Part shown: piece by piece, positions 6,041 through 63,705 of the stretch
How positions within the stretch are numbered: position 1 is the stretch's first letter
Layout of the letters: each line of letters begins with the position of its first letter
Origin: Pseudotamlana haliotis
Lineage (GTDB): Bacteria > Bacteroidota > Bacteroidia > Flavobacteriales > Flavobacteriaceae
Assembly (NCBI RefSeq): GCF_008806375.1
Contig: NZ_WAAT01000039.1
Coordinates: 1-64,000 of the forward strand
Length of the DNA: 64,000 nt
Direction: 5' to 3'
Notes under the pieces: model-generated
Told to the model about the DNA's origin: nothing
Database searches by the model: none
Seen by the model: the letters and a program-made list of their open reading frames with translations, nothing else
Position numbers and translations under genes: made by a program

Positions 6041-6135
6041 TTTAGGGCGTTACCCAAGGGTCGGGCTATCCGTTGCAATCTTTTTGTTCGTACCTCTCAA
6101 AAAGGATTTCCATTGCTATCCCTAACGCGCCAATC
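6041..6135 (+). repeat. Interspersed intergenic repeat, copy 1
   Basis: This element begins near GTTACCCAAGGGTCGGGCTATCC, with a central TTGCAATCTTTTTGTTCGTAC and a right arm AAAAAGGATTTCCATTGC followed by TATCCCTAACGCG. The right arm matches the 16230-16262 copy (AAAAAGGATGCCGCTGCAATC, then CTTAACGCG). Both arms match the reverse-oriented copy at 18645-18765. It is non-coding and its arms are loosely complementary (GGGCTATCC / GGAT...ATCCC). It occupies the gap between lysS and yqaE. Confidence 0.6.
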
Positions 6136-6208
6136 ACAACTATTTGCAAAATCTCTTGTAACATTTTATGTTTGTTGGCGTCTTACTTTTTGTTGGTAGG
6201 AGAGAGGA

Positions 6209-15753: not shown

Positions 15754-15757
15754 AATG

Positions 15758-18508: not shown

Positions 18509-18644
18509 TATTCCCTTGAGGGGATTACAGGGGTGTCCAGCCCTTCATGGGTTACCGAGGAATGTCCTCAATAAAGATTTTTTTTACGGTTATAGTGCAG
18601 TGTTAAGAAGTGTTTGTTTTTATTCATGCAGTTGCACAAGGGAT

Positions 18645-18765
18645 TGCAGCGGCATCCTTTTTTGTGCCAAATGTTAAGTTGAATTGAAACTTAATTAATA
18701 AATAAAGCTGAACTATAGAAACAGGTTTAGCACAAAAAAGATATAGCGGAAAGCGCGGTTTTTAA
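18645..18765 (-). repeat. Interspersed intergenic repeat, copy 3 (inverted)
   Basis: On the minus strand the element starts GCGCTTTCCGCTATATC with TTTTTTGTGC (from about 18760) and ends GCACAAAAAAGGATGCCGCT with GCAATCCCTTGTGC (to about 18650). Both arms match copy 1 at 6041-6135, and the right arm matches copy 2. The 18509-18837 gap also contains a flavobacterial TCCCTTGAGGGGATTACAGG-like string at 18511 and a weak AACAGC/GCTGTT-TT hairpin at 18783-18801 (plus strand). No ORF is seen. Confidence 0.6.
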
Positions 18766-46325: not shown

Positions 46326-47207
46326 ATGAAATCCCATTTCACGTTTTCTAAAAACCAGCGGAATGGGATTTTTTTATTGCTTATACTCATTGTAGCCTGT
46401 CAATTGCTTTATTTTTTTGTCGATTTGCCTTCGGAAGAAATTCATATGCAAAGCAAAGCATTCAATACTTTAGAAAAGCAAATCGATTCTTTGCGTCTGG
46501 CCGAACTTCAGAATAAAAACACACCAAAACCTTTCAATCCTAATTATATTGATGACTTTAAAGGTGCTGTTTTAGGTATGGGGAATGAAGAAATTGATAG
46601 ATTATTAGCCTTTAGAAGTAAAAATAAGTGGGTGAATTCTTCCGAAGAATTTCAAAAAGTGACTGGGGTGTCTGATTCGTTGCTTTCAGTGTTGTCTCCA
46701 AATTTCAAGTTTCCAGATTGGGTGCGTGAAAAGAAAAAGTCAAAACAGTTAGCTTATTCAAAGGTGAAGAGCACGAAATCCTTCCGAGATAAACAGGATT
46801 TGAATACCGCTACGGCAAAACAACTTCAGCAAATAAATGGTGTAGGGAAGGTGCTTTCAGGTCGTATTGTGAAATTTAGAAATACTTTTGTGGGCGGTTT
46901 CATTGCCGATGTACAGCTTGAAGAGGTTTATGGATTATCACCAGAAGTCATTCAACGTATTACGCGTGAGTTTACAGTAAAAAACGCTAATACTGTTCAG
47001 AAAATCGATTTAAATCGGGCCACAGTAAGTGATTTAGTGACCATACCTCATATTGATTACGATTTAGCGCATCATATTATTGAACAACGTCAATTAAGAA
47101 GTGGCTATAAAACCTTTAATGAATTATTGAAAGTAAAGGACTTCCCTGTAAATAAAATCAAGATAATTGAATTATATTTGCAGCTCGAAAAAAATATAGA
47201 TGAATAA
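46326..47207 (+). CDS. Helix-hairpin-helix (ComEA-like) protein
   Basis: The 293-residue protein has an N-terminal hydrophobic anchor (NGIFLLLILIVACQLLYFFV). Three ComEA-type helix-hairpin-helix units follow: one around FKGAVLGMGNEEIDRLLAFR, one at DLNTATAKQLQQINGVGKV (about residues 158-176), and one at DLNRATVSDLVTIPHIDYDL (about 227-246). HhH units bind DNA non-specifically, so it is probably a membrane-bound DNA-handling (competence or uptake) protein. Competence partner genes are not nearby. Its stop overlaps the acyl-CoA dehydrogenase start by 8 bp. Confidence 0.85.
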   Translation: MKSHFTFSKNQRNGIFLLLILIVACQLLYFFVDLPSEEIHMQSKAFNTLEKQIDSLRLAELQNKNTPKPFNPNYIDDFKGAVLGMGNEEIDRLLAFRSKNKWVNSSEEFQKVTGVSDSLLSVLSPNFKFPDWVREKKKSKQLAYSKVKSTKSFRDKQDLNTATAKQLQQINGVGKVLSGRIVKFRNTFVGGFIADVQLEEVYGLSPEVIQRITREFTVKNANTVQKIDLNRATVSDLVTIPHIDYDLAHHIIEQRQLRSGYKTFNELLKVKDFPVNKIKIIELYLQLEKNIDE

Positions 47208-48366
47208 TTTGTACTTCACAGAAGAGCATAACCTCTTCAGAAAGAGCCTTCAAGATTTTTTACAAAAAGAGGTTGTTCCGCATATTGATAAATGGGAGCA
47301 ATCCGGAGAAATCGAAAGATTTATTTGGAAGAAATTTGGAGAAATGGGCTTTTTAGGGATTAAATACCCGGAGGCTTATGGTGGTATGGACTTAGATTTG
47401 TTTTATACTATTATTCTTCTTGAAGAACTTCAAAAAGTAAATTCTGGTGGTTTTGCTGCTGCTATTTGGGCTCATGCTTATTTAGCCATGACGCACTTGA
47501 ATGCTGAAGGCAGTGAAGCGATTAAACAACAATATTTAGCGCCTAGTATTTCAGGTGATAAAATAGGTTGCCTTTGTATTACTGAGCCTTTCGGCGGAAG
47601 TGATGTGGCGGGCATGCGAACAACAGCCGTTAAAAATGGTAATAGTTACATTATTAATGGGTCTAAGACTTTTATTACCAACGGTGTTTTTAGTGACTAC
47701 CTCATTGTAGCTGCTAAAACGAACCCTGAAGCTGGAGGTAAAGGCATTAGTATTTTTGTTGTAGATAGAGATACTCCAGGTATTTCAGCTAGCAAACTCG
47801 ATAAGTTAGGCTGGAGAGCCTCTGATACTGCAGAGTTGGCTTTTGATAATGTAAAGATTCCAGCTGAAAACCTTATGGGTGAAGAAGGAAAAGGTTTTCC
47901 ATATATTATGCAGCATTTTTCATTAGAGCGCTTAATCATGGGGGTTAATGCCCACGCTCGTGCAGAATTTGCTCTTGATTACAGCTTACAATATATGAGT
48001 GACCGTAAGGCTTTCGGTAAGTCTATTGATCAGTTTCAAGCTTTGAGGCATAAGGTTGCCGATTTAGCTACTGAAGTTGAATTCTGTAAAGCCTTTAATT
48101 ATTCAGTGGCCTACCGTTTAGACCAAAGCGAATATGTGGTGAAAGAAGCGACTATGTCAAAACTAAAATCCACTAAAGTAGCCGATGATGTTATTTACCA
48201 ATGTCTGCAATTTTTAGGAGGCTATGGTTATATGGAGGATTATCCTTTAGCAAGACTATTACGTGATAGCCGTTTAGGGCCTATTGGAGGAGGGACTTCA
48301 GAGATTTTAAGAGAGATTTTATCTAAAATTATTATTGACAAAAAGGCCTATAAACCAGCGACATAA
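47200..48366 (+). CDS. Acyl-CoA dehydrogenase family protein
   Basis: The 388-residue FAD enzyme has the ACAD signature LCITEPFGGSDVAGM (about residues 124-138), INGSKTFITNG and RKAFGKSIDQFQALRHK. Near the C-terminus QFLGGYGYMEDYPLARLLRDS is followed by IGGGTSEILREIL. The latter has Gly where MCAD/SCAD-type enzymes have the catalytic Glu; the Glu in ARAEFALD (about residue 252) lies where the LCAD/isovaleryl-type subgroup has its base. It therefore likely belongs to that subgroup and oxidises a medium/long or branched acyl-CoA. It overlaps the HhH gene by 8 bp. Confidence 0.85.
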   Translation: MNNLYFTEEHNLFRKSLQDFLQKEVVPHIDKWEQSGEIERFIWKKFGEMGFLGIKYPEAYGGMDLDLFYTIILLEELQKVNSGGFAAAIWAHAYLAMTHLNAEGSEAIKQQYLAPSISGDKIGCLCITEPFGGSDVAGMRTTAVKNGNSYIINGSKTFITNGVFSDYLIVAAKTNPEAGGKGISIFVVDRDTPGISASKLDKLGWRASDTAELAFDNVKIPAENLMGEEGKGFPYIMQHFSLERLIMGVNAHARAEFALDYSLQYMSDRKAFGKSIDQFQALRHKVADLATEVEFCKAFNYSVAYRLDQSEYVVKEATMSKLKSTKVADDVIYQCLQFLGGYGYMEDYPLARLLRDSRLGPIGGGTSEILREILSKIIIDKKAYKPAT

Positions 48367-48381
48367 AATATTTTTTATTTT

Positions 48382-48414
48382 TTGCTGCTGAATTTAGAAA
48401 TATTTCTATATTTG
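48382..48414 (+). promoter_or_regulatory. rpsU promoter
   Basis: TTG (48382-48384, in TTTTTTG) and TATATTTG (48407-48414) are 22 nt apart, a close match to the Bacteroidota -33/-7 consensus. rpsU starts at 48453; the leader would be about 33 nt and contains the strong SD. Confidence 0.7.
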
Positions 48415-48432: not shown

Positions 48433-48443
48433 AGAGAGGAGGT
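48433..48443 (+). promoter_or_regulatory. Extended Shine-Dalgarno of rpsU
   Basis: AGAGAGGAGGT (48433-48443) matches AGAAAGGAGGT, complementary to the 16S 3' end, with one mismatch; the GGAGG core is 10 nt before the ATG. Such SD elements are rare in Bacteroidota. In flavobacteria bS21 helps sequester the anti-SD, so a strong SD on rpsU fits autogenous control by bS21. Confidence 0.75.
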
Positions 48444-48452
48444 TAAGACACT

Positions 48453-48647
48453 ATGTTAGTAATTCCAATAAAAGAAGGAGAAAATATAGAGAGAGCGTTA
48501 AAGCGTTTTAAAAGAAAGTTCGATAGAACTGGAGCAAGACGTGCGCTACAAACGCGTAAGCAGTTTGATAAGCCCTCTGTTTTACGTAGAGCGCAGATTC
48601 AAAAAGCACAATACGTCCAAGGACTAAGAGATGCTGAGAACATCTAA
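48453..48647 (+). CDS. rpsU: 30S ribosomal protein bS21
   Basis: bS21 is a small basic 30S subunit protein near the anti-Shine-Dalgarno of 16S rRNA. The 64-residue product MLVIPIKEGENIERALKRFK is followed by the Arg-rich FDRTGARRALQTRKQFDKPS region, typical of the family. In Bacteroidota bS21, together with bS18 and bS6, occludes the anti-SD so that most mRNAs are read without SD pairing. Here rpsU itself has an unusually strong SD, so its translation should rise when bS21-lacking ribosomes accumulate. It is monocistronic, with its own promoter and terminator. Confidence 0.95.
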   Translation: MLVIPIKEGENIERALKRFKRKFDRTGARRALQTRKQFDKPSVLRRAQIQKAQYVQGLRDAENI

Positions 48648-48674
48648 ATTATTTTGAGTTCTAAAAATAGATAC

Positions 48675-48701
48675 AAATCCCGCTTCATGCGGGATTTTTT
48701 T
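48675..48701 (+). terminator. Intrinsic terminator of rpsU
   Basis: AAATCCCGC / GCGGGATTT form a 9-bp stem (48675-48683 with 48689-48697) with a 5-nt loop, followed by T4. About 28 bp after the rpsU stop. Confidence 0.88.
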
Positions 48702-48730
48702 GTTTGAGGTTGGAGGGGAAAAACATTTGG

Positions 48731-48850
48731 TGAGTTATATCAATTATGATTTAAAAGGCGTCCTAGATAATTTGGAATATATTGAAATATGAGTTTAATA
48801 GAAACAAATTATAGGGCTCATTTTAGGTTGTAATTGGTGTTAATAAACTT
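48731..48850. repeat. Degenerate interspersed repeat, copy B
   Basis: GAGTTATATCAATTATGATT with later ATTGAAATATGAG and AGAAACAAATTATAG resembles the 41836-41995 region. It lies between rpsU and xerC and has no ORF. Confidence 0.4.
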
Positions 48851-48912
48851 GTGCTTCATTAAATAATAAGTTAACTTTAATCCTTTGCTATAATTTTATA
48901 GAGAAACTTCAG

Positions 48913-49803
48913 ATGGATTTCAAATCATTCACAGATTATTTATTACTTGAAAAAAACTACTCCGCATTAACGGTTAAGGCTTATTATAATGACTTAACCC
49001 GTTTTTCTGAATTTATAGCAGAAACTTTCGATAGTCCTTCAATTAATACCGTTAATTATTCGCAAATAAGGTCGTGGATTGTGCTTTTGGTAGAAGACGG
49101 CATATCGAATAGAAGCATCAATCGAAAAATCTCTGCTTTAAATACCTATTATAAGTTCTTACTGAAGGTTGGTGATATTGAGCAAAATCCCTTAGCCAAA
49201 CACAAAGCTTTAAAAACAAGTAAAAAAGTACAGGTGCCTTTTTCAGAAGCCGAAGTCAAAACCGTTTTAGATGATTTAAATTTTGGTGATGATTTTGAAA
49301 GTATACGCAATAAACTCATCATTGAAATTTTCTACTCTACGGGTATTCGGCGTATCGAACTTGTGGAGCTTAAGTTAACCAGTGTCGATTTGCATAATAA
49401 AACGTTAAAAGTATTAGGGAAACGTAATAAGGAACGTATAGTGCCGTTGTTAGATTCAGTAGTACAAAGTCTAAAACGTTATTTAGAAGTAAGGCATGAG
49501 CTAGAAGACATCACCGATAAGCAATTTCTATTTTTGACAAAAAAAGGCGTTAAAATATATGAAACTCTTGTTTACCGGATAATAAATGATTATTTTAGTT
49601 CGGCATCTTCAAAAGTAAAGAAGAGTCCACATATATTAAGGCACTCTTTTGCTACACATTTGTTAAACCAAGGTGCCGATTTAAATGCTGTTAAAGAACT
49701 TCTAGGACATTCAAGTTTGGCTGCTACCCAAGTTTACACGCATAACAGTATAGCCGAACTTAAAAAAGTACATATAAATGCACATCCACGAAGTAAAAAA
49801 TAA
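48913..49803 (+). CDS. xerC: Tyrosine recombinase XerC
   Basis: This 296-residue tyrosine recombinase resolves chromosome dimers at dif with its partner XerD. The N-terminal SAM-like core-binding domain (FTDYLLLEKNYSALTVKAYY) is followed by the catalytic domain: Arg in STGIRRIELVEL (about 141), Lys/His in the beta-hairpin, HILRHSFATHLL (His-xx-Arg), LLGHSSLAATQVYTH (His and the nucleophile Tyr in QVYTH, near residue 276). All catalytic residues appear intact. The neighbourhood is housekeeping, with hpf and the tRNA-tuf cluster downstream, so it is the chromosomal Xer protein and not a phage integrase. Length is normal. Confidence 0.93.
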   Translation: MDFKSFTDYLLLEKNYSALTVKAYYNDLTRFSEFIAETFDSPSINTVNYSQIRSWIVLLVEDGISNRSINRKISALNTYYKFLLKVGDIEQNPLAKHKALKTSKKVQVPFSEAEVKTVLDDLNFGDDFESIRNKLIIEIFYSTGIRRIELVELKLTSVDLHNKTLKVLGKRNKERIVPLLDSVVQSLKRYLEVRHELEDITDKQFLFLTKKGVKIYETLVYRIINDYFSSASSKVKKSPHILRHSFATHLLNQGADLNAVKELLGHSSLAATQVYTHNSIAELKKVHINAHPRSKK

Positions 49804-49926
49804 TTTCACATATTGTCTAATCTAAAATAGTTAATACGTCAAAGGTTTTGAATAATATATTGATTTGAAGTAAAATTATCCAAAACTTATGGCGTTGTAG
49901 CTGTTTGTTAAATTAAAAGTAAACAG

Positions 49927-50229
49927 ATGAAAGTAAACACGCAATCCGTAAATTTTAATGCAGATGAAAAATTATTAACGTTTATCCAAAAGCGTATGGA
50001 TAAATTAGATTTGTATTATGACAAGGTTATCAAGTCAGACGTTTTTTTGAAAGTTGAAAATACTAGTGATAAAGAAAATAAAATATTCGAAGTTAAAGTA
50101 AGTGTTCCCGGTGATAGTCTTATTGTTAAAAAGCAATGTAAAAGCTTTGAAGAAGGCACAGATATGGCAGTTGCATCCTTAGAAAGACAACTAAAAAAGA
50201 AAAAAGAAAAGTTAAGAGCATATTTATGA
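49927..50229 (+). CDS. hpf: Ribosome hibernation-promoting factor (HPF/RaiA)
   Basis: The 100-residue HPF/RaiA-family protein MKVNTQSVNFNADEKLLTFIQ is followed by DKLDLYYDKVIKSDVFLKVE, EVKVSVPGDSLIVKKQCKS and the basic LERQLKKKKEKLRAYL tail. It is the short type (no C-terminal dimerisation domain), which in other bacteria silences 70S or favours 100S ribosomes in slow growth. The conserved location between xerC and the tRNA-tuf cluster is typical of Bacteroidota. A paralogue is encoded at 15079. Confidence 0.88.
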   Translation: MKVNTQSVNFNADEKLLTFIQKRMDKLDLYYDKVIKSDVFLKVENTSDKENKIFEVKVSVPGDSLIVKKQCKSFEEGTDMAVASLERQLKKKKEKLRAYL

Positions 50230-50251
50230 TAAAAATTATCAAAAAAATGTT

Positions 50252-50280
50252 TTGAATAATATAAAAAAACTATACATTTG
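50252..50280 (+). promoter_or_regulatory. Promoter of the tRNA-tuf transcription unit
   Basis: TTG (50252-50254, in TTTTG) and TACATTTG (50273-50280) are 18 nt apart, a good Bacteroidota promoter. The expected start is near 50284-50287, inside the adjacent terminator-like hairpin; see the findings. Confidence 0.65.
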
Positions 50281-50281
50281 C

Positions 50282-50309
50282 AGTCCGTTAGAAATAGCGG
50301 GCTTTTTTT
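50282..50309 (+). terminator. Terminator-like hairpin at the tRNA-tuf start site
   Basis: AGTCCGTTA / TAGCGGGCT form a 9-bp stem with two G-U pairs (50282-50290 with 50295-50303), a GAAA tetraloop and a T7 tract. It can serve as the hpf terminator and, because it overlaps the tRNA-tuf transcript start, could also attenuate that transcript. Confidence 0.7.
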
Positions 50310-50330
50310 ATATGTAAAAAAAGCAGAAAA

Positions 50331-50404
50331 GCCGATGTAGCTCAGCTGGCTAGAGCAGCTGATTTGTAATCAGCAGGTCGTGGGTTCGAGTCCCTCCATC
50401 GGCT
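50331..50404 (+). tRNA. tRNA-Thr (anticodon TGT)
   Basis: Acceptor GCCGATG pairs with CATCGGC; the discriminator is T. The anticodon loop TTTGTAA gives anticodon TGT, decoding ACA. CCA is not encoded. It is the first tRNA of the tRNA-Thr/Tyr/Gly/Thr-tuf cluster. Confidence 0.95.
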
Positions 50405-50409
50405 CAAAT

Positions 50410-50447
50410 TTTCTGCAAAAGCAGAAATCTCAAAATAAGATTTGAGA
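50410..50447. repeat. Tandem hairpins after tRNA-Thr
   Basis: TTTCTGC-AAAA-GCAGAAA (50410-50427) is followed at once by TCTCAAA / TTTGAGA (50428-50434 with 50441-50447). The first has the same architecture as the hairpins at 50764-50781 and 63714-63733; it may be a processing or REP-like element. Confidence 0.4.
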
Positions 50448-50479
50448 ACGTTCTTTAAAAGAAATGAAATAAGTTAATT

Positions 50480-50561
<82 letters not shown>

Positions 50562-50622
50562 CAAACTTTTTTTAAGATTCTTTAAAATATTGAAACCTGA
50601 TAAGTGTAAAGCTTATCGAAAT

Positions 50623-50695
50623 GCGAGAGTAGCTCAGTTGGTAGAGCGTCAGCCTTCCAAGCTGAATGTCGCCGGTTCGAACCCGGTCTCTCGCT
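50623..50695 (+). tRNA. tRNA-Gly (anticodon TCC)
   Basis: Acceptor GCGAGAG pairs with CTCTCGC; discriminator T. The loop CTTCCAA in the TCAGC/GCTGA stem gives anticodon TCC. Its last 16 nt plus 4 downstream are duplicated at 50743-50762. Confidence 0.95.
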
Positions 50696-50762
50696 CTAAG
50701 TGAGAAACGGGAGAGAAGTTTATGCTGAGCGTAGACGAAGTAAACCCGGTCTCTCGCTCTAA
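50680..50762. repeat. Direct repeat of the tRNA-Gly 3' end with REP-like core
   Basis: AACCCGGTCTCTCGCTCTAA occurs exactly at 50680-50699 (the tRNA 3' end and flank) and at 50743-50762. Between them lies GTTTATGCTGAGCGTAGACG with AAGTAAAC, an imperfect palindrome of the GCTGAGCGTAG-CGAAG type that is common in Bacteroidota. The unit is 63 bp. It looks like a local duplication or a REP-type insertion that copied the tRNA end. Confidence 0.6.
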
Positions 50763-50763
50763 A

Positions 50764-50792
50764 TTCCTGCGAAGGCAGGAAGCTCTTTTTTT
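50764..50792. repeat. TTCCTGC-GAAG-GCAGGAA hairpin with T tract
   Basis: A 7-bp stem (50764-50770 with 50775-50781), loop GAAG, is followed by GCTC and T7 (50786-50792). It resembles the hairpin at 63714-63733 and could act as a weak terminator or a REP-like element between tRNA-Gly and tRNA-Thr. Confidence 0.45.
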
Positions 50793-50842
50793 AGAATAAC
50801 CTTTTTAAGGTTTTTTGAGAAAATAGGAAATAAAAACTTTAC

Positions 50843-50914
50843 GCCGGTGTAGCTCAGGGGTAGAGCGTTTCCTTGGTAAGGAAGAGGTCACGAGTTCAAA
50901 TCTCGTCATTGGCT
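50843..50914 (+). tRNA. tRNA-Thr (anticodon GGT)
   Basis: Acceptor GCCGGTG pairs with CATTGGC (two G-U pairs); discriminator T. The anticodon loop TTGGTAA gives GGT. It is immediately upstream of tuf. Confidence 0.93.
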
Positions 50915-50984
50915 CTATATTTAGATTAAAAAATTAGAATACACTAATATTATTATATAACTAAGATTAAATTTTTTTAAAAAC

Positions 50985-52172
50985 ATGGCAAAGGCAACTT
51001 TCGATCGTTCAAAACCACACTTAAATATTGGTACAATTGGACACGTAGATCACGGTAAAACAACTTTAACTGCTGCTATTACTAAAGTATTAGCTGATGC
51101 AGGTTTATCAGAATCAAGAGATTTCGATACTATCGATAACGCTCCAGAAGAAAAAGAAAGAGGTATTACAATTAATACTTCACACGTTGAGTATCAAACA
51201 GAAAATCGTCACTACGCGCACGTTGACTGTCCAGGTCACGCCGATTACGTAAAGAACATGGTTACTGGTGCTGCTCAAATGGATGGTGCAATCTTAGTGG
51301 TAGCTGCTACTGATGGTCCTATGCCACAAACTCGTGAGCACATCTTATTAGGTCGTCAAGTAGGTATTCCTCGTATCGTTGTTTTCTTAAACAAAGTTGA
51401 TATGGTGGATGATGAAGAGCTTTTAGAGCTTGTTGATATGGAAGTTAGAGATTTATTATCTTTCTACGAGTACGATGGAGATAATGGTCCTGTAATTTCT
51501 GGTTCTGCTTTAGGTGCACTTAACGGTGAGCAAAAATGGGTAGATACTGTAATGGAATTAATGAATGCTTGTGATGAGTGGATTGAAGAGCCTGTACGTG
51601 ATATGGATAAGCCTTTCTTAATGCCTATCGAAGATGTATTCTCTATTACTGGTCGTGGTACTGTTGCAACTGGTCGTATTGAAACTGGTGTTGCTCAAAC
51701 AGGTGACCCTGTAGATATCGTTGGTATGGGAGCTGAGAAATTAACTTCTACTATTACTGGTATTGAAATGTTCCGTCAAATTTTAGATAGAGGTGAAGCT
51801 GGTGATAACGCTGGTATCTTATTAAGAGGTATTGAGAAATCTCAAATCTCAAGAGGTATGGTAATCGTTAAGCCTGGTTCTGTAACTCCTCACGCTAAAT
51901 TTAAAGCTGAGGTTTATATCCTTAAGAAAGAAGAAGGTGGACGTCACACTCCATTCCACAACAACTACCGTCCACAGTTCTACGTACGTACAACTGACGT
52001 AACAGGAAACATCCAACTTCCTGATGGAGTTGAAATGGTTATGCCTGGAGATAACTTAACTATCACTGTTGAATTAATCAACACGATTGCAATGAACGTA
52101 GGTTTACGTTTCGCTATCCGTGAAGGTGGTAGAACAGTTGGTGCAGGTCAGGTAACTGAAATTTTAGACTAA
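50985..52172 (+). CDS. tuf: Elongation factor Tu
   Basis: EF-Tu delivers aminoacyl-tRNA to the ribosome as a GTPase. The 395-residue protein has G1 GHVDHGKTT (19-27), the switch [16 protein letters not shown]3 [10 protein letters not shown]4 NKVD (about 135), G5 SGSALGA, and the C-terminal EF-Tu barrel ([32 protein letters not shown]). Codon use is strongly biased toward a small set of codons, as expected for a highly expressed gene. The order tRNA-tuf-tRNA-Trp-secE is preserved as in other Bacteroidota. Confidence 0.98.
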
Positions 52173-52203
52173 TTAATAATTAGTTGAATCAAAATAATAA
52201 GCT

Positions 52204-52229
52204 AAGGTATTCCTTTTTTGGAATACCTT
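52204..52229 (+). terminator. Hairpin downstream of tuf
   Basis: AAGGTATTCC / GGAATACCTT form a perfect 10-bp stem with a T6 loop (52204-52213 with 52220-52229). No clear T tail follows, so it may be a processing or attenuation structure between tuf and tRNA-Trp. Confidence 0.5.
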
Positions 52230-52240
52230 GACTTATGTTT

Positions 52241-52313
52241 ACGGGCGTAGCTCAGTTGGTAGAGCACTGGTCTCCAAAACCAGGTGTCGGGAGTTCGAGT
52301 CTCTCCGCCCGTG
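52241..52313 (+). tRNA. tRNA-Trp (anticodon CCA)
   Basis: Acceptor ACGGGCG pairs with CGCCCGT; discriminator G. The anticodon loop CTCCAAA gives CCA. CCA 3' end is not encoded. It is located between tuf and secE, the standard position. Confidence 0.95.
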
Positions 52314-52461
52314 CAAAAAATGAGAAATGGTTTTTATAACTGTTTCTCATCATTTGGATAAACGTGATGGCATAAGTGGTACTCACGACAAGTAAATAAT
52401 AGGATTGCCTGTTAAAAATTAAAATGGATACTTGTATCAATTAGATTAAAAAGAAACAACA

Positions 52462-52656
52462 ATGGCTGGATTTGTAAATTATATAAAGGAATCATTCGGA
52501 GAACTAAAGAATAATGTGACTTGGCCAACTTGGGCTGAAGGACAGAGTTTAACTATTTTAGTTGCTGTATTTTCAATTATATTTTCACTTGCTATTTGGG
52601 GTGTTGATACTGTATTTAGCAAGGTGATTGCAACTTACTTTGATTTGATTCGTTAA
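52462..52656 (+). CDS. secE: Preprotein translocase subunit SecE
   Basis: SecE is the small essential subunit of the SecYEG protein-export channel. The 64-residue product has the short amphipathic/charged N-terminal region (FVNYIKESFGELKNNVTWPTW, the family motif K-N-V-x-W-P) and one membrane helix (LTILVAVFSIIFSLAIWGVDTV). It is shorter than E. coli SecE, which has extra N-terminal helices, but normal for Bacteroidota. It precedes nusG by 25 bp, as in most bacteria. Confidence 0.93.
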   Translation: MAGFVNYIKESFGELKNNVTWPTWAEGQSLTILVAVFSIIFSLAIWGVDTVFSKVIATYFDLIR

Positions 52657-52681
52657 GACTAAACAGAAAAAAGAATATTTT

Positions 52682-53236
52682 ATGTCTGAAGTAAGTGATA
52701 AAAAATGGTACGTTGTTCGTGCAGTAAGTGGTCAAGAGAACAAAATTAAAAGTTATATCGAAAACGAAATTGCTCGTTTAGGTATGCAAGATTATGTTGA
52801 TCAAGTATTAGTGCCTACAGAACGTGTTGTTCAAATTCGTAACGGAAAAAAAATTCATAAGGAAAAAGTGTTTTTTCCTGGATATATTATGGTTCAAGCC
52901 AATTTAACTGGTGAAGTACCGCACATTATTAGATCGGTTACCAATGTAATTGGATTTTTAGGTGAAACTAAAGGAGGTGATCCTGTGCCATTAAGACAAT
53001 CTGAAGTAAACAGAATGTTAGGTAAAGTAGATGAGCTTTCTGTTGAGGAAACTGCTAATGTAGCGATTCCTTATACAAAAGGTGAAACCGTTAAAGTTAT
53101 CGATGGTCCTTTCAATGGATTTGATGGAACGATTGAGAAAATTAACGAAGAGAAGCGTAAACTTGAAGTGATGGTTAAGATTTTCGGAAGAAAAACACCA
53201 TTAGAGTTAAGTTATATGCAAGTTGAAAAAGTATAA
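52682..53236 (+). CDS. nusG: Transcription termination/antitermination factor NusG
   Basis: The 184-residue protein has the NGN domain (KWYVVRAVSGQENKIKSYIE near the N-terminus; FFPGYIMVQANLTGE) and the C-terminal KOW motif (GETVKVIDGPFNGFDGTIEKI). NusG binds RNA polymerase and couples it to ribosomes and Rho. Length is normal for Bacteroidota. It is part of the secE-nusG-rplKAJL-rpoBC block. Confidence 0.96.
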   Translation: MSEVSDKKWYVVRAVSGQENKIKSYIENEIARLGMQDYVDQVLVPTERVVQIRNGKKIHKEKVFFPGYIMVQANLTGEVPHIIRSVTNVIGFLGETKGGDPVPLRQSEVNRMLGKVDELSVEETANVAIPYTKGETVKVIDGPFNGFDGTIEKINEEKRKLEVMVKIFGRKTPLELSYMQVEKV

Positions 53237-53308
53237 TAGTGTTACAATTAAGATAGGTGAGTCTTTCGCTTCCAAAAGAGAGATAACACCAAAATTAAAT
53301 TATTAAAA
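53237..53308 (+). promoter_or_regulatory. nusG-rplK leader with potential base stem
   Basis: The 72-nt spacer can close a GTGTTA / TAACAC stem (53239-53244 with 53284-53289) with inner CTTT...AAAG pairing. L1 or L11 autoregulatory sites often lie in this position; no consensus is clear enough to assign one. Confidence 0.3.
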
Positions 53309-53746
53309 ATGGCAAAAGAATTAGGTAAAGTAGTTAAGTTACAAGTTCGGGGAGGTGCTGCGAATCCGTCGCCACCGGTTGGACCCGCTTTAGGAGCTGC
53401 AGGTGTTAACATCATGGAGTTCTGTAAGCAATTCAATGCTAGAACACAAGACAAGGCTGGTAAAGTATTACCAGTTGTGATTTCTGTTTACAAAGACAAA
53501 TCATTTGACTTTGTAATTAAGACACCACCAGCGGCAGTTCAATTATTAGAAGCTGCCAAGTTGAAAAAGGGTTCTGGAGAGCCAAACCGAAAAAAAGTAG
53601 CTAAAGTATCTTGGGACCAAATCAAGACTATAGCAGAAGACAAAATGGTAGATTTAAATGCATTTACAATTGAGTCAGCTATGAAAATGATTGCAGGTAC
53701 AGCAAGATCGATGGGAATCACTGTAACAGGAACATTTCCTTCTTAA
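53309..53746 (+). CDS. rplK: 50S ribosomal protein uL11
   Basis: The 145-residue uL11 binds 23S rRNA at the GTPase-associated centre. The N-terminal [20 protein letters not shown] is followed by [19 protein letters not shown], the family signature, and the C-terminal domain has [14 protein letters not shown]. It is followed by rplA with a 20-bp spacer, the classical L11-L1 pair. Codon usage is of the highly expressed type. Confidence 0.97.
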
Positions 53747-53766
53747 TCTATTAAAGACATTACAAA

Positions 53767-54456
53767 ATGGCAAGATTAACAAAAAAGCAAAAAGAAGCTT
53801 TAGCGAAAATTGAAAAAGGAAGAGTATATTCATTAGAAGATGCATCAGCCTTAATTAAAGAAGTTACCAATACAAAATTTGATGCGTCAGTAGACTTAGC
53901 TGTACGTTTAGGAGTAGATCCTCGTAAAGCAAATCAAATGGTAAGAGGTGTGGTATCTCTTCCTCACGGTACTGGTAAAGACGTAAAAGTATTAGCATTA
54001 GTAACACCAGACAAAGAAGCAGAAGCTAAAGAAGCGGGTGCTGATTATGTAGGTTTAGATGAGTACCTTGATAAAATCAAGAGTGGTTGGACAGACGTTG
54101 ATGTTATTATTACTATGCCTAGCGTTATGGGTAAATTAGGTCCTTTAGGACGTGTATTAGGTCCTCGTGGTTTAATGCCTAACCCAAAGACAGGAACAGT
54201 AACAATGGATGTTGCAAAAGCTGTATCAGAAGTAAAAGCTGGTAAAATTGACTTTAAAGTTGATAAAACTGGTATTGTACACGCTGCTATCGGTAAAGCA
54301 TCTTTCAGTGCTGATAAAATTGCAGATAATGCAAATGAATTATTACAAACATTATTGAAATTAAAACCAACAACTGCAAAAGGTGTTTATGTAAAAAGCA
54401 TTTTTATGTCTTCTACAATGAGCCCAAGTATCGCTGTTGATTCTAAAATTGGTTAA
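53767..54456 (+). CDS. rplA: 50S ribosomal protein uL1
   Basis: uL1 forms the mobile L1 stalk of the large subunit and is the usual repressor of the L11 operon. The 229-residue sequence has [37 protein letters not shown] and the [20 protein letters not shown] signature followed by [17 protein letters not shown]. It lies between rplK and rplJ in the standard order. Confidence 0.97.
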
Positions 54457-54475
54457 TTAAGTTAAAACTTTTATT

Positions 54476-54997
54476 ATGACAAGAGAAGAAAAATCATTGG
54501 TAATTGAGGAATTAACTGCAGAATTAGCTAATAACGCAAATATCTACTTAACTGATATTTCTGGATTAAACGCTGATACTACCTCAAATTTACGTCGTGC
54601 TGCTTTTAAAGCAAACGTACAAATGGCAGTTGTTAAAAATACATTACTTGCAAAAGCAATGGAGGCTTCAGATAGAGATTTTGGAGATTTACCTTCAGTA
54701 CTTAAAGGAAATACATCTGTGATGTATTCTGAGACAGGTAACGTACCAGCTAAGTTGATTAAAAACTTCCGTAAAAAATCAGAGAAGCCTTTATTAAAAG
54801 GTGCTTTTATTGAGGAAGCTGTTTACATCGGTGACGAACAATTAGACATGTTAGTTGATATCAAGTCTAAGGAAGAGTTAATTGGAGAGATTGTTGGATT
54901 ATTACAATCGCCTGCTAAAAACGTTGTATCGGCTCTTAAATCAGGAGGAAGTACAATAGCTGGACTTATAAAAACACTATCTGAAAAAGAAGGATAG
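54476..54997 (+). CDS. rplJ: 50S ribosomal protein uL10
   Basis: uL10 anchors L7/L12 dimers to the ribosome. The 173-residue sequence has NIYLTDISGLNADTTSNLR, MAVVKNTLLAKAM and a C-terminal helix region (VVSALKSGGSTIAGLIKTL) that recruits L12. It is 19 bp downstream of rplA; the stop is followed by a 62-bp gap before rplL. Confidence 0.96.
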   Translation: MTREEKSLVIEELTAELANNANIYLTDISGLNADTTSNLRRAAFKANVQMAVVKNTLLAKAMEASDRDFGDLPSVLKGNTSVMYSETGNVPAKLIKNFRKKSEKPLLKGAFIEEAVYIGDEQLDMLVDIKSKEELIGEIVGLLQSPAKNVVSALKSGGSTIAGLIKTLSEKEG

Positions 54998-55059
54998 TCT
55001 TAAATAGTACGCACTTTATTACAATTATATTATTACAAAATCATTAAAACGATAGAAAA

Positions 55060-55434
55060 ATGGCAGATTTAAAAGATTTCGCAGAACAATTAGTTAACCT
55101 TACTGTAAAAGAAGTAAACGAGTTAGCAACTATATTAAAAGATGAGTATGGTATCGAGCCTGCTGCTGCTGCTGCAGTTGCTGTTGCTGGTCCTGCTGCA
55201 GGTGGAGAAGCTGAAGAAGCTCAAACTGAATTTGATGTAATCTTAAAAGCAGCTGGTGGATCTAAATTAGCAGTTGTAAAATTAGTTAAAGAATTAACTG
55301 GTTTAGGATTAAAAGAGGCTAAAGGTTTAGTTGATGACGCACCAAGCCCAATCAAAGAAGCAGTTTCTAAAGACGAAGCTGAAGCTCTTAAAGCTCAATT
55401 AGAAGAGGCTGGAGCAGAGGTAGAGCTTAAGTAA
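55060..55434 (+). CDS. rplL: 50S ribosomal protein bL12
   Basis: bL12 forms the factor-recruiting stalk. The 124-residue sequence has the N-terminal dimerisation helices ([19 protein letters not shown]), the Ala/Gly-rich hinge ([15 protein letters not shown]) and the C-terminal factor-binding domain ([32 protein letters not shown]). A strong hairpin in the 124-bp gap separates it from rpoB. Confidence 0.97.
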
Positions 55435-55457
55435 GCTTAACATCTCAAACATTTAAC

Positions 55458-55493
55458 GGTTTAGGTCTGAAGGCGTTCTTCAAGACCTAAACC
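55458..55493 (+). terminator. rplL-rpoB intergenic hairpin (candidate attenuator)
   Basis: GGTTTAGGTCT (55458-55468) pairs perfectly with AGACCTAAACC (55483-55493); the interior adds GAAG/CTTC around a 5-nt loop. It is followed by only ATTTTG, so termination would be partial, as expected of an attenuator that lowers rpoBC relative to ribosomal-protein output. Confidence 0.55.
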
Positions 55494-55558
55494 ATTTTGC
55501 GTATATAACGTTTACATACGCTACTATTATTTTTTTTTAATCAAAATTCCGTCCATTG

Positions 55559-58500
55559 ATGTTATCAACACAAGCTGAAAGATTAAATTTCTCTTCTATA
55601 ATTAATAGAACGGAATATCCAGACTTCTTGGATATTCAGATTAAATCCTTCCAGGATTTTTTCCAGTTAGAAACTAAATCAGAGGAAAGAGGTGATGAAG
55701 GTCTTTATAATACCTTCATGGAAAACTTTCCAATTACAGATTCTCGTAATCAATTCGTTTTAGAATTTTTAGATTACTTTGTAGATCCACCAAGATATGC
55801 TATTGAAGAGTGTATTGAAAGAGGACTTACTTACAGCGTTCCGCTAAAGGCTAGGTTAAAGTTATATTGTACAGACCCTGAACATGAAGATTTCGAAACC
55901 ATTGTTCAAGATGTGTACTTAGGAACTATTCCTTACATGACGCCTTCTGGAACTTTTTGTATTAATGGTGCAGAGCGTGTTGTAGTATCTCAATTACACC
56001 GTTCACCAGGGGTTTTCTTTGGCCAATCTTTTCACGCCAACGGAACCAAATTATATTCAGCCAGAGTTATACCATTCAAAGGATCTTGGATTGAATTCGC
56101 TACAGATATCAACCAAGTGATGTATGCGTACATCGATAGAAAGAAAAAATTACCTGTTACTACGCTTTTCCGTGCCATTGGTTTTGAGCGTGATAAAGAC
56201 ATTTTAGAGATTTTTGACTTAGCCGAAGAAGCTAAAGTTTCAAAAACAGGATTAAAAAAATACTTAGGAAGAAAATTAGCTGCCCGTGTATTAAATACAT
56301 GGCATGAGGATTTTGTTGATGAAGATACGGGAGAGGTTGTATCTATTGAGCGTAATGAAATTGTGCTTGATCGTGATACAATTCTTGATAAAGAAAATAT
56401 AGAAGAGATTCTTGATGCTGATGTGAAGACTATTCTTTTACATAAAGAAAGTACTGAGCAAGGTGATTATGCTATTATTCATAACACACTTCAAAAGGAT
56501 CCAACAAACTCTGAAAAAGAGGCTGTTGAACATATCTACAGACAACTACGTAATGCTGAGCCGCCAGATGAGGAAACAGCACGTGGTATTATTGATAAAT
56601 TATTCTTTAGTGACCAACGTTACTCTTTAGGAGAAGTTGGACGTTATAGAATGAACAAAAAATTAGGTCTTGATATAGGAATGGATAAGCAAGTGCTTAC
56701 CAAAGAAGATATCATTACCATTATTAAATATTTAATCGAGCTTATCAACTCTAAAGCTGAGATTGATGATATTGATCACTTATCTAACCGTCGTGTACGT
56801 ACCGTTGGTGAGCAATTATCTTCTCAATTTGGTGTTGGTTTAGCACGTATGGCGCGTACCATTCGTGAACGTATGAACGTTCGTGATAATGAGGTGTTTA
56901 CTCCTATTGATTTAATTAATGCTAAGACTTTATCGTCGGTAATTAATTCTTTCTTTGGGACAAACCAGTTATCTCAATTTATGGATCAAACCAATCCACT
57001 AGCTGAAATTACGCATAAGCGTCGTTTATCAGCTCTTGGACCTGGAGGTTTATCAAGAGAGCGTGCAGGATTCGAGGTTCGTGATGTTCACTACACACAC
57101 TACGGACGTTTATGTCCTATTGAAACACCAGAGGGACCAAATATTGGTTTAATTTCTTCACTTTCTGTTTACGCAAAAGTTAACCCAATGGGATTCATTG
57201 AAACACCTTATAGAAAAGTTACTGATGGTGTTGTTGATATTAAAAATGAACCAACTTATTTAAGTGCTGAAGAAGAGGAAGAAAAATTAATCGCTCAAGC
57301 AACTGTTAAAGTTGATGACGATGGAAAAATTCTTCATGATAAGGTTATTGCAAGAATGGAAGGTGACTTCCCAGTAATTGATCCAGGTGCATTACATTAT
57401 ACAGATGTTGCTCCAAATCAAATTTCTTCAATTTCTGCTTCTTTAATTCCGTTCTTAGAGCATGATGATGCGAACCGTGCCTTGATGGGATCAAACATGA
57501 TGCGTCAAGCGGTACCATTATTAAGAGTTGATGCACCAATTGTAGGAACTGGTTTAGAGCGTCAAGTGGCTACTGATTCTAGAGTGTTAATTAATGCTGA
57601 AGGAGAAGGAGAAGTACTTTACGTTGATGCTAAAGAAATACAAATTAGATACGAGCGTACCGAAGATGAAGCTAAAGTAAGTTTTGATAGTGATGTTAAA
57701 ACATACCAATTAGTAAAATACAGAAAAACTAACCAAGGGACATCTATCAACCTAAAACCAATTGTTGTTAAAGGTGATAAAGTTTCTAAAGGTCAAGTTT
57801 TATGTGAAGGGTATGCTACACAAAAAGGAGAATTAGCTTTAGGTAGAAATATGAAAGTAGCCTTTATGCCTTGGAAAGGGTATAACTTTGAGGATGCGAT
57901 TGTAATTTCTGAAAAAGTAGTTCGTGAAGATATATTCACTTCTATCCATATTGATGAGTACTCTCTTGAAGTAAGAGATACTAAATTAGGAAATGAAGAA
58001 TTAACTAACGATATCCCTAACGTTTCTGAAGAGGCTACTAAAGACTTAGATGAAAATGGTATGATTCGCGTTGGTGCCGAGGTTAAGCCTGGTGATATTC
58101 TTATTGGTAAGATTACTCCAAAAGGAGAGTCTGATCCAACTCCTGAAGAAAAATTATTACGTGCGATCTTTGGTGATAAAGCTGGAGATGTGAAAGATGC
58201 TTCTTTAAAAGCTTCACCTTCATTGAATGGTGTTGTTATCGAGAAGAAATTATTCGCAAGAGCCGTAAAAGATAAACGTAAGAGAGCTCAAGATAAAGAT
58301 GATATTCTTGCTTTAGAGGCTCAGTACGATAGAAAGTTTGATGAATTAAAAGATATTTTAGTTGATAAACTTTTCAACATTGTAAACGGAAAAACAGCTC
58401 AAGGTATCTTTAATGATTTAGGAGAAGAAGTTTTACCAAAAGGTAAAAAGTTTACACTTAAAATGTTAAATGCTGTTGATGATTATGCGCATTTAGTGTC

Positions 58501-59371
58501 TGGAAAATGGACAACAGATGATCATACTAATCAATTAGTGGCTGATTTAATTCACAACTACAAGATTAAAGAGAACGATTTACAAGGTTCTTTACGTCGT
58601 GAGAAGTTTACAATCTCTGTAGGTGATGAGTTACCAGCAGGTATTATTAAATTAGCTAAAGTTTATATCGCTAAGAAACGTAAACTTAAAGTAGGTGATA
58701 AAATGGCAGGACGTCACGGTAACAAAGGTATTGTTGCTAGAATTGTTCGTCAAGAAGATATGCCATTCTTAGAAGACGGAACGCCTGTTGATATCGTACT
58801 TAATCCACTTGGTGTACCATCGCGTATGAACATCGGGCAGATTTATGAAACGGTATTAGGTTGGGCCGGACAAAAATTAGGACGTAAATACGCAACACCA
58901 ATCTTTGATGGTGCTTCAATTGATCAAATTAATGAATTTACAGATGAAGCTGGAATTCCAAGATATGGTCATACGTATCTTTACGATGGTGGAACAGGTC
59001 AGCGTTTCGATCAACCAGCAACAGTTGGTGTGATTTACATGCTGAAACTAGGACACATGGTTGATGATAAAATGCACGCACGTTCTATTGGACCTTACTC
59101 ATTAATTACGCAACAACCATTAGGTGGTAAAGCACAGTTTGGTGGTCAGCGTTTTGGTGAGATGGAAGTTTGGGCACTTGAGGCTTATGGCGCATCAAGT
59201 ACCTTACGTGAGATTTTAACTGTAAAATCTGATGATGTTATTGGTAGAGCTAAAACTTACGAAGCTATCGTAAAAGGTGAACCAATGCCAGATCCAGGAT
59301 TACCAGAATCATTCAACGTACTTATGCACGAATTGAAAGGTTTAGGTCTAGACATCAGATTAGAAGAGTAG
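55559..59371 (+). CDS. rpoB: RNA polymerase subunit beta
   Basis: The 1270-residue beta subunit starts [13 protein letters not shown] (ATG at 55559; an in-frame TTG immediately before is not used). The protrusion/lobe region has [13 protein letters not shown] and the rifampicin region [20 protein letters not shown] with [13 protein letters not shown], showing the drug-sensitive-type residues. The C-terminal clamp has GRHGNKGIV and the final [16 protein letters not shown]. The cluster-I motif [11 protein letters not shown] is intact. It is in an operon with rpoC (32-bp spacer). Length and codon usage are normal for Bacteroidota. Confidence 0.98.
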
Positions 59372-59403
59372 TTAATTAATTAAATTCATTTCAACCATAT
59401 ATT

Positions 59404-62400
59404 ATGGCAAGAAAACAAGATAAAAATACAGTTAAGAGATTTAATAAAATCTCAATTGGTTTAGCATCACCAGAATCTATTTTAGCAGAGTCTAGAGGTG
59501 AGGTTTTAAAACCAGAAACTATCAATTATCGTACTCACAAACCTGAACGTGATGGTTTGTTCTGTGAGCGTATTTTTGGTCCTGTAAAGGATTATGAGTG
59601 TGCTTGTGGTAAGTATAAAAGAATTCGCTACAAAGGTATTGTTTGTGACCGTTGTGGTGTAGAAGTAACAGAAAAGAAAGTACGTCGTGATCGTGTTGGG
59701 CACATCAATTTAGTTGTTCCTGTTGCACACATTTGGTACTTCCGTTCTTTACCAAATAAAATTGGTTACTTATTAGGATTACCTTCTAAGAAATTAGATA
59801 TGATTATTTACTACGAACGTTACGTAGTAATTCAACCTGGTAATGCTAAAAATGAAGAAGGTGAACCATTACAAAAAATGGACTTCTTAACAGAAGAAGA
59901 GTATCTAAATATCATGGAAACTCTTCCTCAAGATAATCAATATTTAGACGATTCAGACCCTAACAAGTTTTTAGCTAAAATGGGTGCTGAATGTTTAATT
60001 GAGTTGTTATCAAGAATTGATTTAGAGTCTTTATCATACGAATTACGTCATAAAGCAAATACAGAAACGTCTAAACAACGTAAAACTGAAGCTTTAAAAC
60101 GTTTACAAGTTGTTGAGTCTTTAAAAGAATCTAACAATAACCGTGAGAACCGTCCGGAGTGGATGATCATGAAAGTGATTCCAATTATTCCGCCAGAATT
60201 ACGTCCATTAGTACCTTTAGATGGAGGTCGTTTTGCAACTTCAGATTTAAATGATCTTTACCGTCGTGTTATTATTCGTAACAACCGTCTTAAAAGATTA
60301 GTTGAAATTAAAGCTCCAGAAGTAATTTTACGTAATGAAAAACGTATGCTTCAAGAGTCTGTTGATTCATTATTTGATAACACACGTAAGTCTTCAGCGG
60401 TAAAAACAGATTCTAACAGACCTTTAAAATCTTTATCAGATTCATTAAAAGGTAAGCAAGGTCGTTTCCGTCAAAACTTACTTGGTAAACGTGTAGATTA
60501 TTCAGCACGTTCGGTAATTGTTGTTGGACCAGAATTAAAATTATTTGAATGTGGATTGCCTAAAAATATGGCAGCCGAATTATACAAGCCTTTCGTAATT
60601 AGAAAATTAATTGAAAGAGGTATCGTAAAAACGGTTAAATCTGCTAAGAAAATTATAGATAAAAGAGAACCAGTGGTTTGGGATATCTTGGAAAATGTTC
60701 TTAAAGGACATCCGGTATTACTAAACCGTGCGCCTACCTTACACCGTTTGGGTATTCAAGCTTTCCAACCAAAATTAATTGAAGGAAAAGCGATCCAATT
60801 ACACCCATTAGTATGTACGGCCTTTAACGCCGATTTCGATGGTGATCAGATGGCGGTGCACTTACCACTTGGACCAGAAGCTATTTTAGAATGTCAAATG
60901 TTAATGTTGGCATCTCATAATATCTTAAATCCTGCAAATGGTTCTCCTGTAACGGTACCTTCTCAGGATATGGTACTTGGTCTTTACTATATGACCAAGC
61001 TACGTAAATCTACTCCAGAAGTGCCAATTCAAGGTGAAGGATTAACATTTTACTCTGATGAAGAGGTTGAAATTGCTTTCAATGAGAAACGTGTTGATTT
61101 GAATGCTGGAATTAAAGTAAGAACTATCGACATCAACGAAGATGGTAAACTTGCTCCAATGATTATTGAAACTACTGTTGGTCGTGTATTATTTAACAAA
61201 CACGTACCACAGGCAGCTGGATATATTAATGAGGTATTAACCAAAAAATCTTTAAGAGATATTATTGGTAACATCCTTAAGGCAACTTCGGTTCCTGAAA
61301 CAGCTGATTTCTTAGATGCTATTAGAACTTTAGGATTTAAATTCGCCTTCCAAGGTGGTTTATCGTTTAGTTTAGGTGATATTATCATTCCGCCAGAAAA
61401 ACAAGGTATGATTGATAAAGCTAACGGTTTAGTTGAAGGTATTACAGGTAACTATAACATGGGACTTATTACCAACAATGAACGTTATAACCAAGTTATT
61501 GATATTTGGACGTCTACAAATGCTGAATTGACAGAATTGTCTATGAAACGTATTCGTGAAGACCAACAAGGATTCAATTCGGTGTTTATGATGCTTGATT
61601 CTGGTGCTCGTGGATCTAAAGAACAGATTCGTCAGTTAACTGGTATGCGTGGATTAATGGCGAAACCTAAAAAATCTACTGCAGGAGGTGGTTCTATTAT
61701 TGAAAACCCGATTCTTTCTAACTTTAAGGAAGGTCTTTCAATTTTAGAATACTTTATCTCAACGCACGGTGCTCGTAAAGGTCTTGCGGATACGGCACTT
61801 AAAACGGCCGATGCAGGTTACTTAACACGTCGTTTAGTTGATGTATCTCAAGATGTTATTATCAATACTGAAGATTGTGGTACATTAAGAGGTGTTGAAG
61901 TTGAGCCATTGAAGAAGAATGATGAAGTTGTTGAAAGTTTAGCGGAAAGAATTGTAGGACGTGTGTCATTAAATGACGTTTACAATCCGTTAACTGAAGA
62001 AAAATTAGCTTCTGCTGGACAATTAATTGATGACGCTGTAGCGAAAGTTATTGGTGGATCTCCATTAGAAAGTATTGAAGTACGTTCTCCATTATCTTGT
62101 GAAGCTTTACAAGGAATTTGTGCTAAATGTTACGGACGTAACTTAGCTACAGGTAAAATGGTACAACGTGGTGAAGCTGTTGGGGTTGTTGCGGCACAAT
62201 CAATTGGTGAGCCAGGTACACAGTTAACACTTCGTACATTCCACGTAGGTGGTATTGCAGGTAACATTTCAGAAGAAAATAGCTTAATTGTGAAGTTTGA
62301 TGGTGTTGCTGAAATTGAAGATTTAAAAACAGTTAAAGGTCAAGATGGTGATGGAAACGATATTGATATCGTAATCTCTAGAACGTCTGAACTTAAACTT

Positions 62401-63705
62401 ATAGATAAGAAAACAGGTATCGTACTAAGTACGAATAACATTCCTTATGGTTCGACTATTAATATTAAGAATGGTCAAGAATTATCTAAAGGAGATGTGG
62501 TTTGTTCTTGGGATCCATATAACGGGGTTATTATTTCAGAATTTGCTGGTAAAGTAAGATATGAAAACCTTGAACAAGGGGTAACGTACCAAGTAGAGAT
62601 TGATGAGCAAACAGGTTTCCAAGAGAAAGTAATTTCTGAATCTAGAAACAAAAAGCTTATCCCAACGTTGCATATTGAAAATGCAAGTGGTGAAACCATG
62701 CGTTCTTACAACTTACCAGTTGGAGCACACATTATGATTGATGATGGTGAAGCTGTTAATATTGGAAAAATCTTAGTTAAGATTCCTCGTAAATCTGCTA
62801 AGGCAGGTGATATTACCGGTGGTCTTCCTCGTGTAACTGAGTTATTCGAAGCACGTAACCCTTCTAACCCAGCAGTAGTTAGTGCTATTGATGGTGTGGT
62901 TTCTTTCGGGAAAATCAAAAGAGGTAACCGTGAGATTATCGTAGAATCTAAATTAGGTGATGTTAAGAAATACTTAGTGAAATTATCAAGTCAGATTCTT
63001 GTTCAAGAAAATGATTTCGTAAAAGCGGGTATGCCATTATCAGATGGTTCGATTACACCTAACGATATCTTAAATATCAAAGGCCCTTCAGCGGTACAAC
63101 AGTACTTAGTAAATGAAGTACAAGAAGTATATCGTTTACAAGGGGTGAAGATTAATGATAAGCACTTCGAGGTTGTTGTAAGACAAATGATGCGTAAAGT
63201 TAGAATCATTGATTCTGGTGATACCATTTTCCTAGAAGATCAATTGGCTCATAAAGCAGATTTCATCAAAGAAAACGATGATATCTTCGGAATGAAGGTT
63301 ATTGAAGACGCTGGAGATTCTTCAACGTTGAAAGCAGGACAAATTGTTACCCCACGTCAGTTAAGAGATGAGAATTCTATCTTACGTCGTGAAGACAAAG
63401 CGCTTGTTTCAGCTAGAGAAGCACAACCAGCAACGGCAACTCCAATACTTCAAGGTATTACAAGAGCGTCGCTTCAAACGAAATCATTTATTTCTGCTGC
63501 TTCCTTCCAAGAAACAACTAAAGTACTTAACGAAGCTGCAGTAGCAGGTAAAGTAGATGCTTTAGAAGGCTTGAAAGAAAATGTAATTGTTGGACATAGA
63601 ATTCCAGCAGGTACAGGTATGAGACGCTATTCTGATATCATTGTTGGCTCTAAAGAAGAGTTTGACGAAATGATGCAAGTAAAGCAAGAACTTAATTACA
63701 ACTAG
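59404..63705 (+). CDS. rpoC: RNA polymerase subunit beta'
   Basis: The 1433-residue beta' subunit has the N-terminal zinc-binding cluster (Cys66, Cys68, Cys81, Cys84), the rudder/clamp region [18 protein letters not shown] and the catalytic Mg2+ motif [12 protein letters not shown] (about residue 476-487). The trigger loop/bridge helix region contains [20 protein letters not shown], and the second zinc cluster is in CGTLRG...[14 protein letters not shown]. All catalytic residues are present. It ends with a REP-like hairpin and a true terminator. It forms one operon with rpoB. Confidence 0.98.

Follow-up and report, generated by a model that had tools for sequence, protein, structure and literature searches.

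An Extended Shine-Dalgarno Sequence before rpsU and a Second bS21 Gene without One in Pseudotamlana haliotis and Other Flavobacteriaceae

The rpsU gene in the window (the whole stretch of 64,000 nucleotides of Pseudotamlana haliotis DNA analysed here) is preceded by an extended Shine-Dalgarno sequence (SD), and the same genome possesses, elsewhere, a second bS21 gene without an SD. As judged by comparison of sequences across the family, the SD is partitioned between two kinds of bS21 gene, rpsU-A with it and bS21-B without it. The mechanism acting through the rpsU SD is not new, as it has been published for Flavobacterium johnsoniae (McNutt et al. 2023, PMC9976891), and the window rpsU is a bS21-A gene that presumably operates under this known SD-dependent feedback. 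The two-gene layout, in turn, is apparently undescribed: a literature search of partial coverage brought up nothing on paralogs of bS21 in Flavobacteriaceae, and where PMC9976891 lists the organisms that have additional bS21 copies, no Bacteroidota are named.

The rpsU-A Locus and Its Extended SD

The gene rpsU-A (48453-48647, on the plus strand, as are its signals and neighbours given below) encodes a bS21 protein of 64 aa with Tyr54 present, and both bS21-A (56.6 bits) and bS21-B of the same genome (60.7 bits) score above the cut-off of 27 for Pfam family PF01165 (Ribosomal_S21). Its extended SD, AGAGAGGAGGT (48433-48443), stands 9 nt before the ATG at 48453. A search for 16S rRNA in the own assembly found none, so the tail used for pairing, AACACCUCCUUUCU, was taken from three other genomes of the family (G019, G129, and G297), in which the 16S ends with GGAACACCTCCTTTCT and the anti-SD tail CACCTCCTTTCT is present. 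With this family-member tail, the SD forms 11 contiguous pairs, including one G-U, at -17.6 kcal/mol, which is below the published criterion of -13 kcal/mol for autoregulated rpsU (PMC9976891). The initial annotation had located the SD 9-10 nt before the bS21 start with one mismatch to the 16S tail; the site was correct, at 9 nt, and what was read as a mismatch is the G-U pair. It had also described such SDs as rare in the window, which agrees with our result that rpsU-A, with the strongest SD among the 48 window genes, is the only one below -13 kcal/mol, the runner-up lying at -8.0; this pairing exceeds what chance would give. Values of -7 kcal/mol or lower were found for 2/48 genes at the SD position and for 3/48 at a mock position. 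Over the own genome, RGARAGGAGGT with up to one mismatch gave 112 matches versus 106 for a reversed control, and a genome-wide excess of SDs is therefore absent; among the matches listed, the single exact one is the rpsU-A site itself.

The genome G003, which belongs to the same genus, gave 55 exact matches to RGARAGGAGGT versus 2 for the control. An SD regulon in G003 was considered and rejected, because most of the sites examined belong to one repeat in a transposase-like frame: 20 further sites examined gave 21 matches, comprising 18 of one repeated stretch and three of a second, and two more G003 loci (L435 and L443) also contain the first stretch. This first stretch reads Gly-Lys-Lys-Lys-Gly-Gly-Ile-Lys in frame and runs into the transposase-like frame; we presume that it is part of the coding region of a mobile element present in several copies. 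Exact extended-SD matches also stand before the ATG of a frame in L445 (from G161, a genome with bS21-B only), at 4 nt, and in L418 (G179), at 5 nt.

Upstream of the SD lie a TTTG (48381-48384, noted by sequence inspection) and the box TATATTTG (48407-48414, of the form TAnnTTTG), which we take to be possible -33 and -7 elements of a Bacteroidota-type promoter; the box is kept in the A leaders of relatives. Downstream of the gene, a terminator-like hairpin followed by a T run is present (48675-48701, folding z-score -4.75). A structured rpsU-A leader was rejected, since the leader folds no better than its shuffles (z 0.46) and has no Rfam match at the gathering score. The upstream neighbour is an open reading frame (47200-48366) that is presumably an acyl-CoA dehydrogenase-like gene, and the downstream neighbours are an xerC-like tyrosine recombinase (48913-49803, Phage_integrase match), which is a conserved neighbour of bS21-A, and an HPF/RaiA-type ribosome hibernation protein (49927-50229, Ribosomal_S30AE match). 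The stretch 48453-63705 thus holds rpsU-A, xerC, and the HPF-type gene, after which come tRNA genes and then long frames that by gene order are presumably tuf, secE/nusG, rplKAJL, and rpoBC. Elsewhere in the window, Flavo-1 RNA (RF01705) has two matches above the gathering score, at 6055-6145 (minus strand) and 18618-18764 (plus strand), and a tmRNA is located at 15755-16149 (minus strand).

Relation to the Published Mechanism

According to the available text of McNutt et al. (PMC9976891), a strong-SD reporter and rpsU'-gfp are translated more when bS21 is mutated or depleted in F. johnsoniae, but SD-less reporters are not, and ribosomes without bS21 initiate more quickly on rpsU mRNA and more slowly on SD-less mRNAs. 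There, Tyr54 of bS21 stacks on the 16S tail, the pocket for this tail is completed by bS18 and bS6, SDs are rare in the other genes of such genomes, and about 80% of Flavobacteriales are predicted to meet the criteria for an SD-autoregulated rpsU. As far as that text goes, the F. johnsoniae gene resembles the window rpsU in being a stand-alone gene with a short leader, an extended SD, and Tyr54 in a genome where SDs are rare elsewhere; unlike what is described there, P. haliotis carries an additional SD-less bS21 gene elsewhere in its genome. The initial annotation had proposed the window rpsU as a candidate for bS21 autoregulation, which fits what has been published for such leaders (PMC9976891), so that its kind was well chosen, although the idea had already been published. 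The same annotation had regarded promoter, leader, gene, and terminator as a compact, self-contained unit. The upstream box and the downstream terminator-like hairpin were indeed found; the loop, however, is not self-contained, because the own genome has the SD-less bS21-B, whose product may close the anti-SD.

A Second bS21 Gene, bS21-B

In the own genome, bS21-B (G000:C50; L001, 1468-1662, minus strand) begins 39 nt past the end of an rpoD-like sigma gene and has no SD. Two bS21 copies were found in 6/6 genomes of the genus searched, including the own, and, judged by bS21-B, the closest named relatives are Tamlana species. Among 299 genomes of the family, 175 have one bS21 match, 102 have two, 10 have three, and 12 have none, as tallied by hand and with the second matches in G032, G046, and G233 lying below the family cut-off. 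Some family genomes carry three bS21 genes, and the second copies in other family genomes (L280-L319) include many further diverged ones that fall outside the A and B clades described below. bS21-B itself is present in 85 of the 299 genomes (E <= 4.6e-24, counted by hand), and in eight of these it is the only bS21 match. Over 247 genomes of the class (seven of them of the family, the own included), the own match was the only one of B strength (>85 bits) among the matches listed, the next being 72 bits.

The neighbours of bS21-B are conserved in part. An rpoD frame is located upstream in 47 of 85 distinct B loci, a different gene family (AsmA-like by eye) takes this position in 29, and a convergent DUF2797-type gene lies downstream in 60. 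These conserved neighbours argue that B is a resident chromosomal gene, while the rpoD linkage is not general; in the own genome, rpoD and B may share a common transcript.

Partition of the SD between the Two Genes

The B copies were analysed in 88 genomes (85 of the family and three of the genus), and the A copies, chosen as those most like the A of the window, in 59 of the 80 genomes that have B and another copy. In these 59 two-copy genomes, read on both sides, every A copy pairs at -17.6 to -17.2 kcal/mol (59/59), whereas no B copy reaches -7 kcal/mol (0/59). None of all 88 B copies reaches -13 kcal/mol, and one of them, L135 (G158), has a medium SD-like site of -9.8 kcal/mol. B loci with organism names, whose species are partly the same, gave 0/80 at -7 kcal/mol. 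The rpsU-A leader is conserved among relatives: the spacing in the two-bS21 genomes is 9 nt in 50/59 and 8 nt in 9/59, and TAnnTTTG occurs within 60 nt of the start in 58/59. Both proteins keep Tyr54 (88/88 B and 65/65 A, both own-genome copies included).

In a tree of 227 bS21 proteins, A and B form separate clades with supports of 0.988 and 0.905, respectively. The A clade comprises 98 bacterial tips and one viral-contig tip, and a strong SD precedes 93 of the 98, the five without it being L267, L272, L279, L280, and L292. The B clade contains 80 tips, none with an SD at or below -13 kcal/mol; five of them are deep branches, three of which (G027, G178, and G277) come from genomes with a single, SD-less bS21. 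None of the remaining 31 bacterial tips outside A and B reaches -13 kcal/mol. Medium SD-like sites were observed before two bS21 genes of further lineages, L281 (G200, -12.0 kcal/mol) and L285 (G121, -10.2 kcal/mol). The feedback proposed in the initial annotation presupposed an SD conserved in related rpsU leaders, and the 59/59 A copies of two-bS21 genomes, together with the 93/98 bacterial A-clade tips, display this conservation. The A copy L041 (G209), excluded from the tree as its start was wrongly assigned, has an intact extended SD, an ACG at the usual start, and an in-frame stop two codons earlier; either the ACG serves as an unusual start codon, preceded by a very strong SD, or the sequence contains an error here.

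The sequence AGAGAGGAGGTT was found in 55/59 A copies of two-gene genomes versus 4/34 of a comparison set, which was hand-picked and includes the wrongly started L041 as well as L025 (G160) and L033 (G233), each from a genome with a second, diverged match. The idea that possession of B causes a weaker SD was rejected, because phylogeny confounds this comparison and the set was chosen by hand.

Genomes with bS21-B Alone

The recombinase gene xerC adjoins 123 of 128 distinct SD-bearing bS21 loci, and the acyl-CoA dehydrogenase-like gene occurs at 77 of the 128, a count limited by the length fetched. The xerC locus was examined in seven of the eight B-only genomes, G071 (80% complete) being left out, and about 1.5 kb upstream of xerC contained a bS21-A match in 0/7. 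In G161, a B-only genome in a single contig, the acyl-CoA dehydrogenase-like gene directly precedes xerC. As B has no SD in 8/8 B-only genomes and A is missing beside xerC in the seven examined, the SD goes with the A lineage and does not pass to the bS21 gene that a genome happens to retain. Genomes that possess B can thus lose control through the SD, and B, found alone in 8/299 genomes with A absent beside xerC in 7/7, seems able to serve alone.

Codon Usage of the Two Genes

The share of C-ending codons in Phe, Tyr, Asn, His, and Asp, counted from codon 17 onward, was used as a measure of codon bias. Its mean is 0.50 in B and 0.31 in A, with B higher in 46 genomes, A higher in 12, and one tie or undefined (Wilcoxon p 1.7e-6); Phe, Asp, and His account for the difference, to which Tyr and Asn do not contribute, and the genomes compared are not independent of one another. 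For reference, long open frames in the flanks have shares of 0.23-0.27, and in the window, the gene presumed to be tuf and the four genes after it, named by order, have 0.48 versus 0.30 for 11 others. A copies used as the single copy have a mean of 0.46 over a flank value of 0.34. The codon usage of B thus lies nearer than that of A to what highly expressed genes show, which points to a higher expression of B.

Comparison with Phage bS21 and Other Paralogs

The bS21 of Bacteroidetes phages, as described in the available text of PMC9723584, resembles bS21-B in being an extra source of bS21 with an aromatic residue at position 54. It is also like B in having no strong SD, as none of the viral contigs fetched reaches -13 kcal/mol. 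In contrast, B resides in the chromosome next to conserved neighbours, and of the 18 viral-contig proteins placed in the tree, one (L375) belongs to the A clade and none to the B clade. A phage origin of bS21-B is hence unsupported, with 0/18 viral tips in its clade and the viral proteins scoring about equally to A and B. Viral-contig relatives numbered 55 with B as the query and one with A, where the search patterns were query-specific. The viral contigs L320-L373 carry phage-type bS21, none of the distinct ones listed having a strong SD, and some viral-contig proteins share Arg-Asn-Val-Lys at positions 24-27 with bS21-B, yet lie outside the B clade. In Francisella tularensis, likewise, several bS21 proteins per genome could share one ribosomal site (PMC9976891); that organism differs in belonging to another phylum and in its paralogs being tied to macrophage growth, and no SD partition is mentioned in the available text.

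A Proposed Role for the Two Genes and Alternative Readings

The reading that we favour, and hold to be slightly better than even, is that the SD-less B gives the regular supply of bS21, while the SD-bearing A is a feedback top-up that senses total bS21, i.e., the known mechanism spread over two genes. Ribosomes without bS21 would have a free anti-SD and would read the extended-SD mRNA of A best, while filled ones would not. As an SD-less gene, B should be translated by filled ribosomes, in the same way as ordinary SD-less genes. Once in the ribosome, bS21-B should hide the anti-SD, as Tyr54 is kept, the one feature that leads us to this expectation, and A would then be turned down. In this way, A may act as a homeostatic top-up reporting the number of bS21-free ribosomes, and B would probably be the main supply. 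Against the top-up stand the eight fixed positions at which B differs from A, the B-only genomes, which show that SD control is dispensable, the lack of a strong SD in five bacterial copies of the A clade and in the odd lineages, and the occurrence of an rpoD frame before only 47/85 distinct B loci.

The simpler picture is a one-gene loop as in F. johnsoniae, with A as the main, self-regulated copy and B as a minor or condition-specific one that hardly affects the loop. F. johnsoniae functions with its SD-bearing rpsU, as far as the available text of PMC9976891 describes, and no features vary less from genome to genome than the A locus, its SD, and its leader; yet B is present in 85/299 family genomes, is the sole bS21 match in eight, and exceeds A in codon bias when the two are compared genome by genome, and we regard this picture as unlikely, though worth some weight. 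That the SD is merely a strong ribosome-binding site or a relic, with no regulatory role here, appears very improbable: in some relatives the SD, or even A altogether, has indeed disappeared, but across many genera the SD and its spacing hardly vary, in genomes where SDs are otherwise missing (as found here for the window, and as published in PMC9976891).

Two further readings give the A/B ratio a role of its own. A and B might compete for the one site to form two kinds of ribosome, whose ratio, set via the SD loop, would regulate the translation of other genes. The fixed A/B differences, at positions 13, 23, 24, 27, 29, 33, 36, and 47 with Tyr54 constant, are near positions where phage and host bS21 reportedly differ, in the region where mRNA would bind (PMC9723584, in its available text), and the two ribosomes might thus differ in function; moreover, the F. 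tularensis paralogs are all incorporated and only one supports macrophage growth, as stated in the available part of PMC9976891. However, the own genome shows no excess of SD-like sites, so that no set of mRNAs stands out as targets of ribosomes whose anti-SD is free, and we consider this reading rather improbable. Equally doubtful to us is a cross-regulated pair, in which B would be translated by filled and A mainly by empty ribosomes, the distinct middle regions of the proteins would lead to two mRNA choices, and the A/B ratio would tune the filling. If this were true, the ratio would report the filling, for example once ribosomes have been damaged or an infecting phage brings in an SD-less bS21 of its own.

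Few bacterial cases of specialised ribosomes are as clear as that of the SD-controlled rpsU, and the single-gene picture drawn from F. johnsoniae may fail for a good part of the family. The many relatives with an SD-less second bS21, and those that have dropped A, are natural strains for asking what purpose the feedback serves, whether one bS21 paralog responds to the level of the other, and whether ribosomes with A are unlike those with B.
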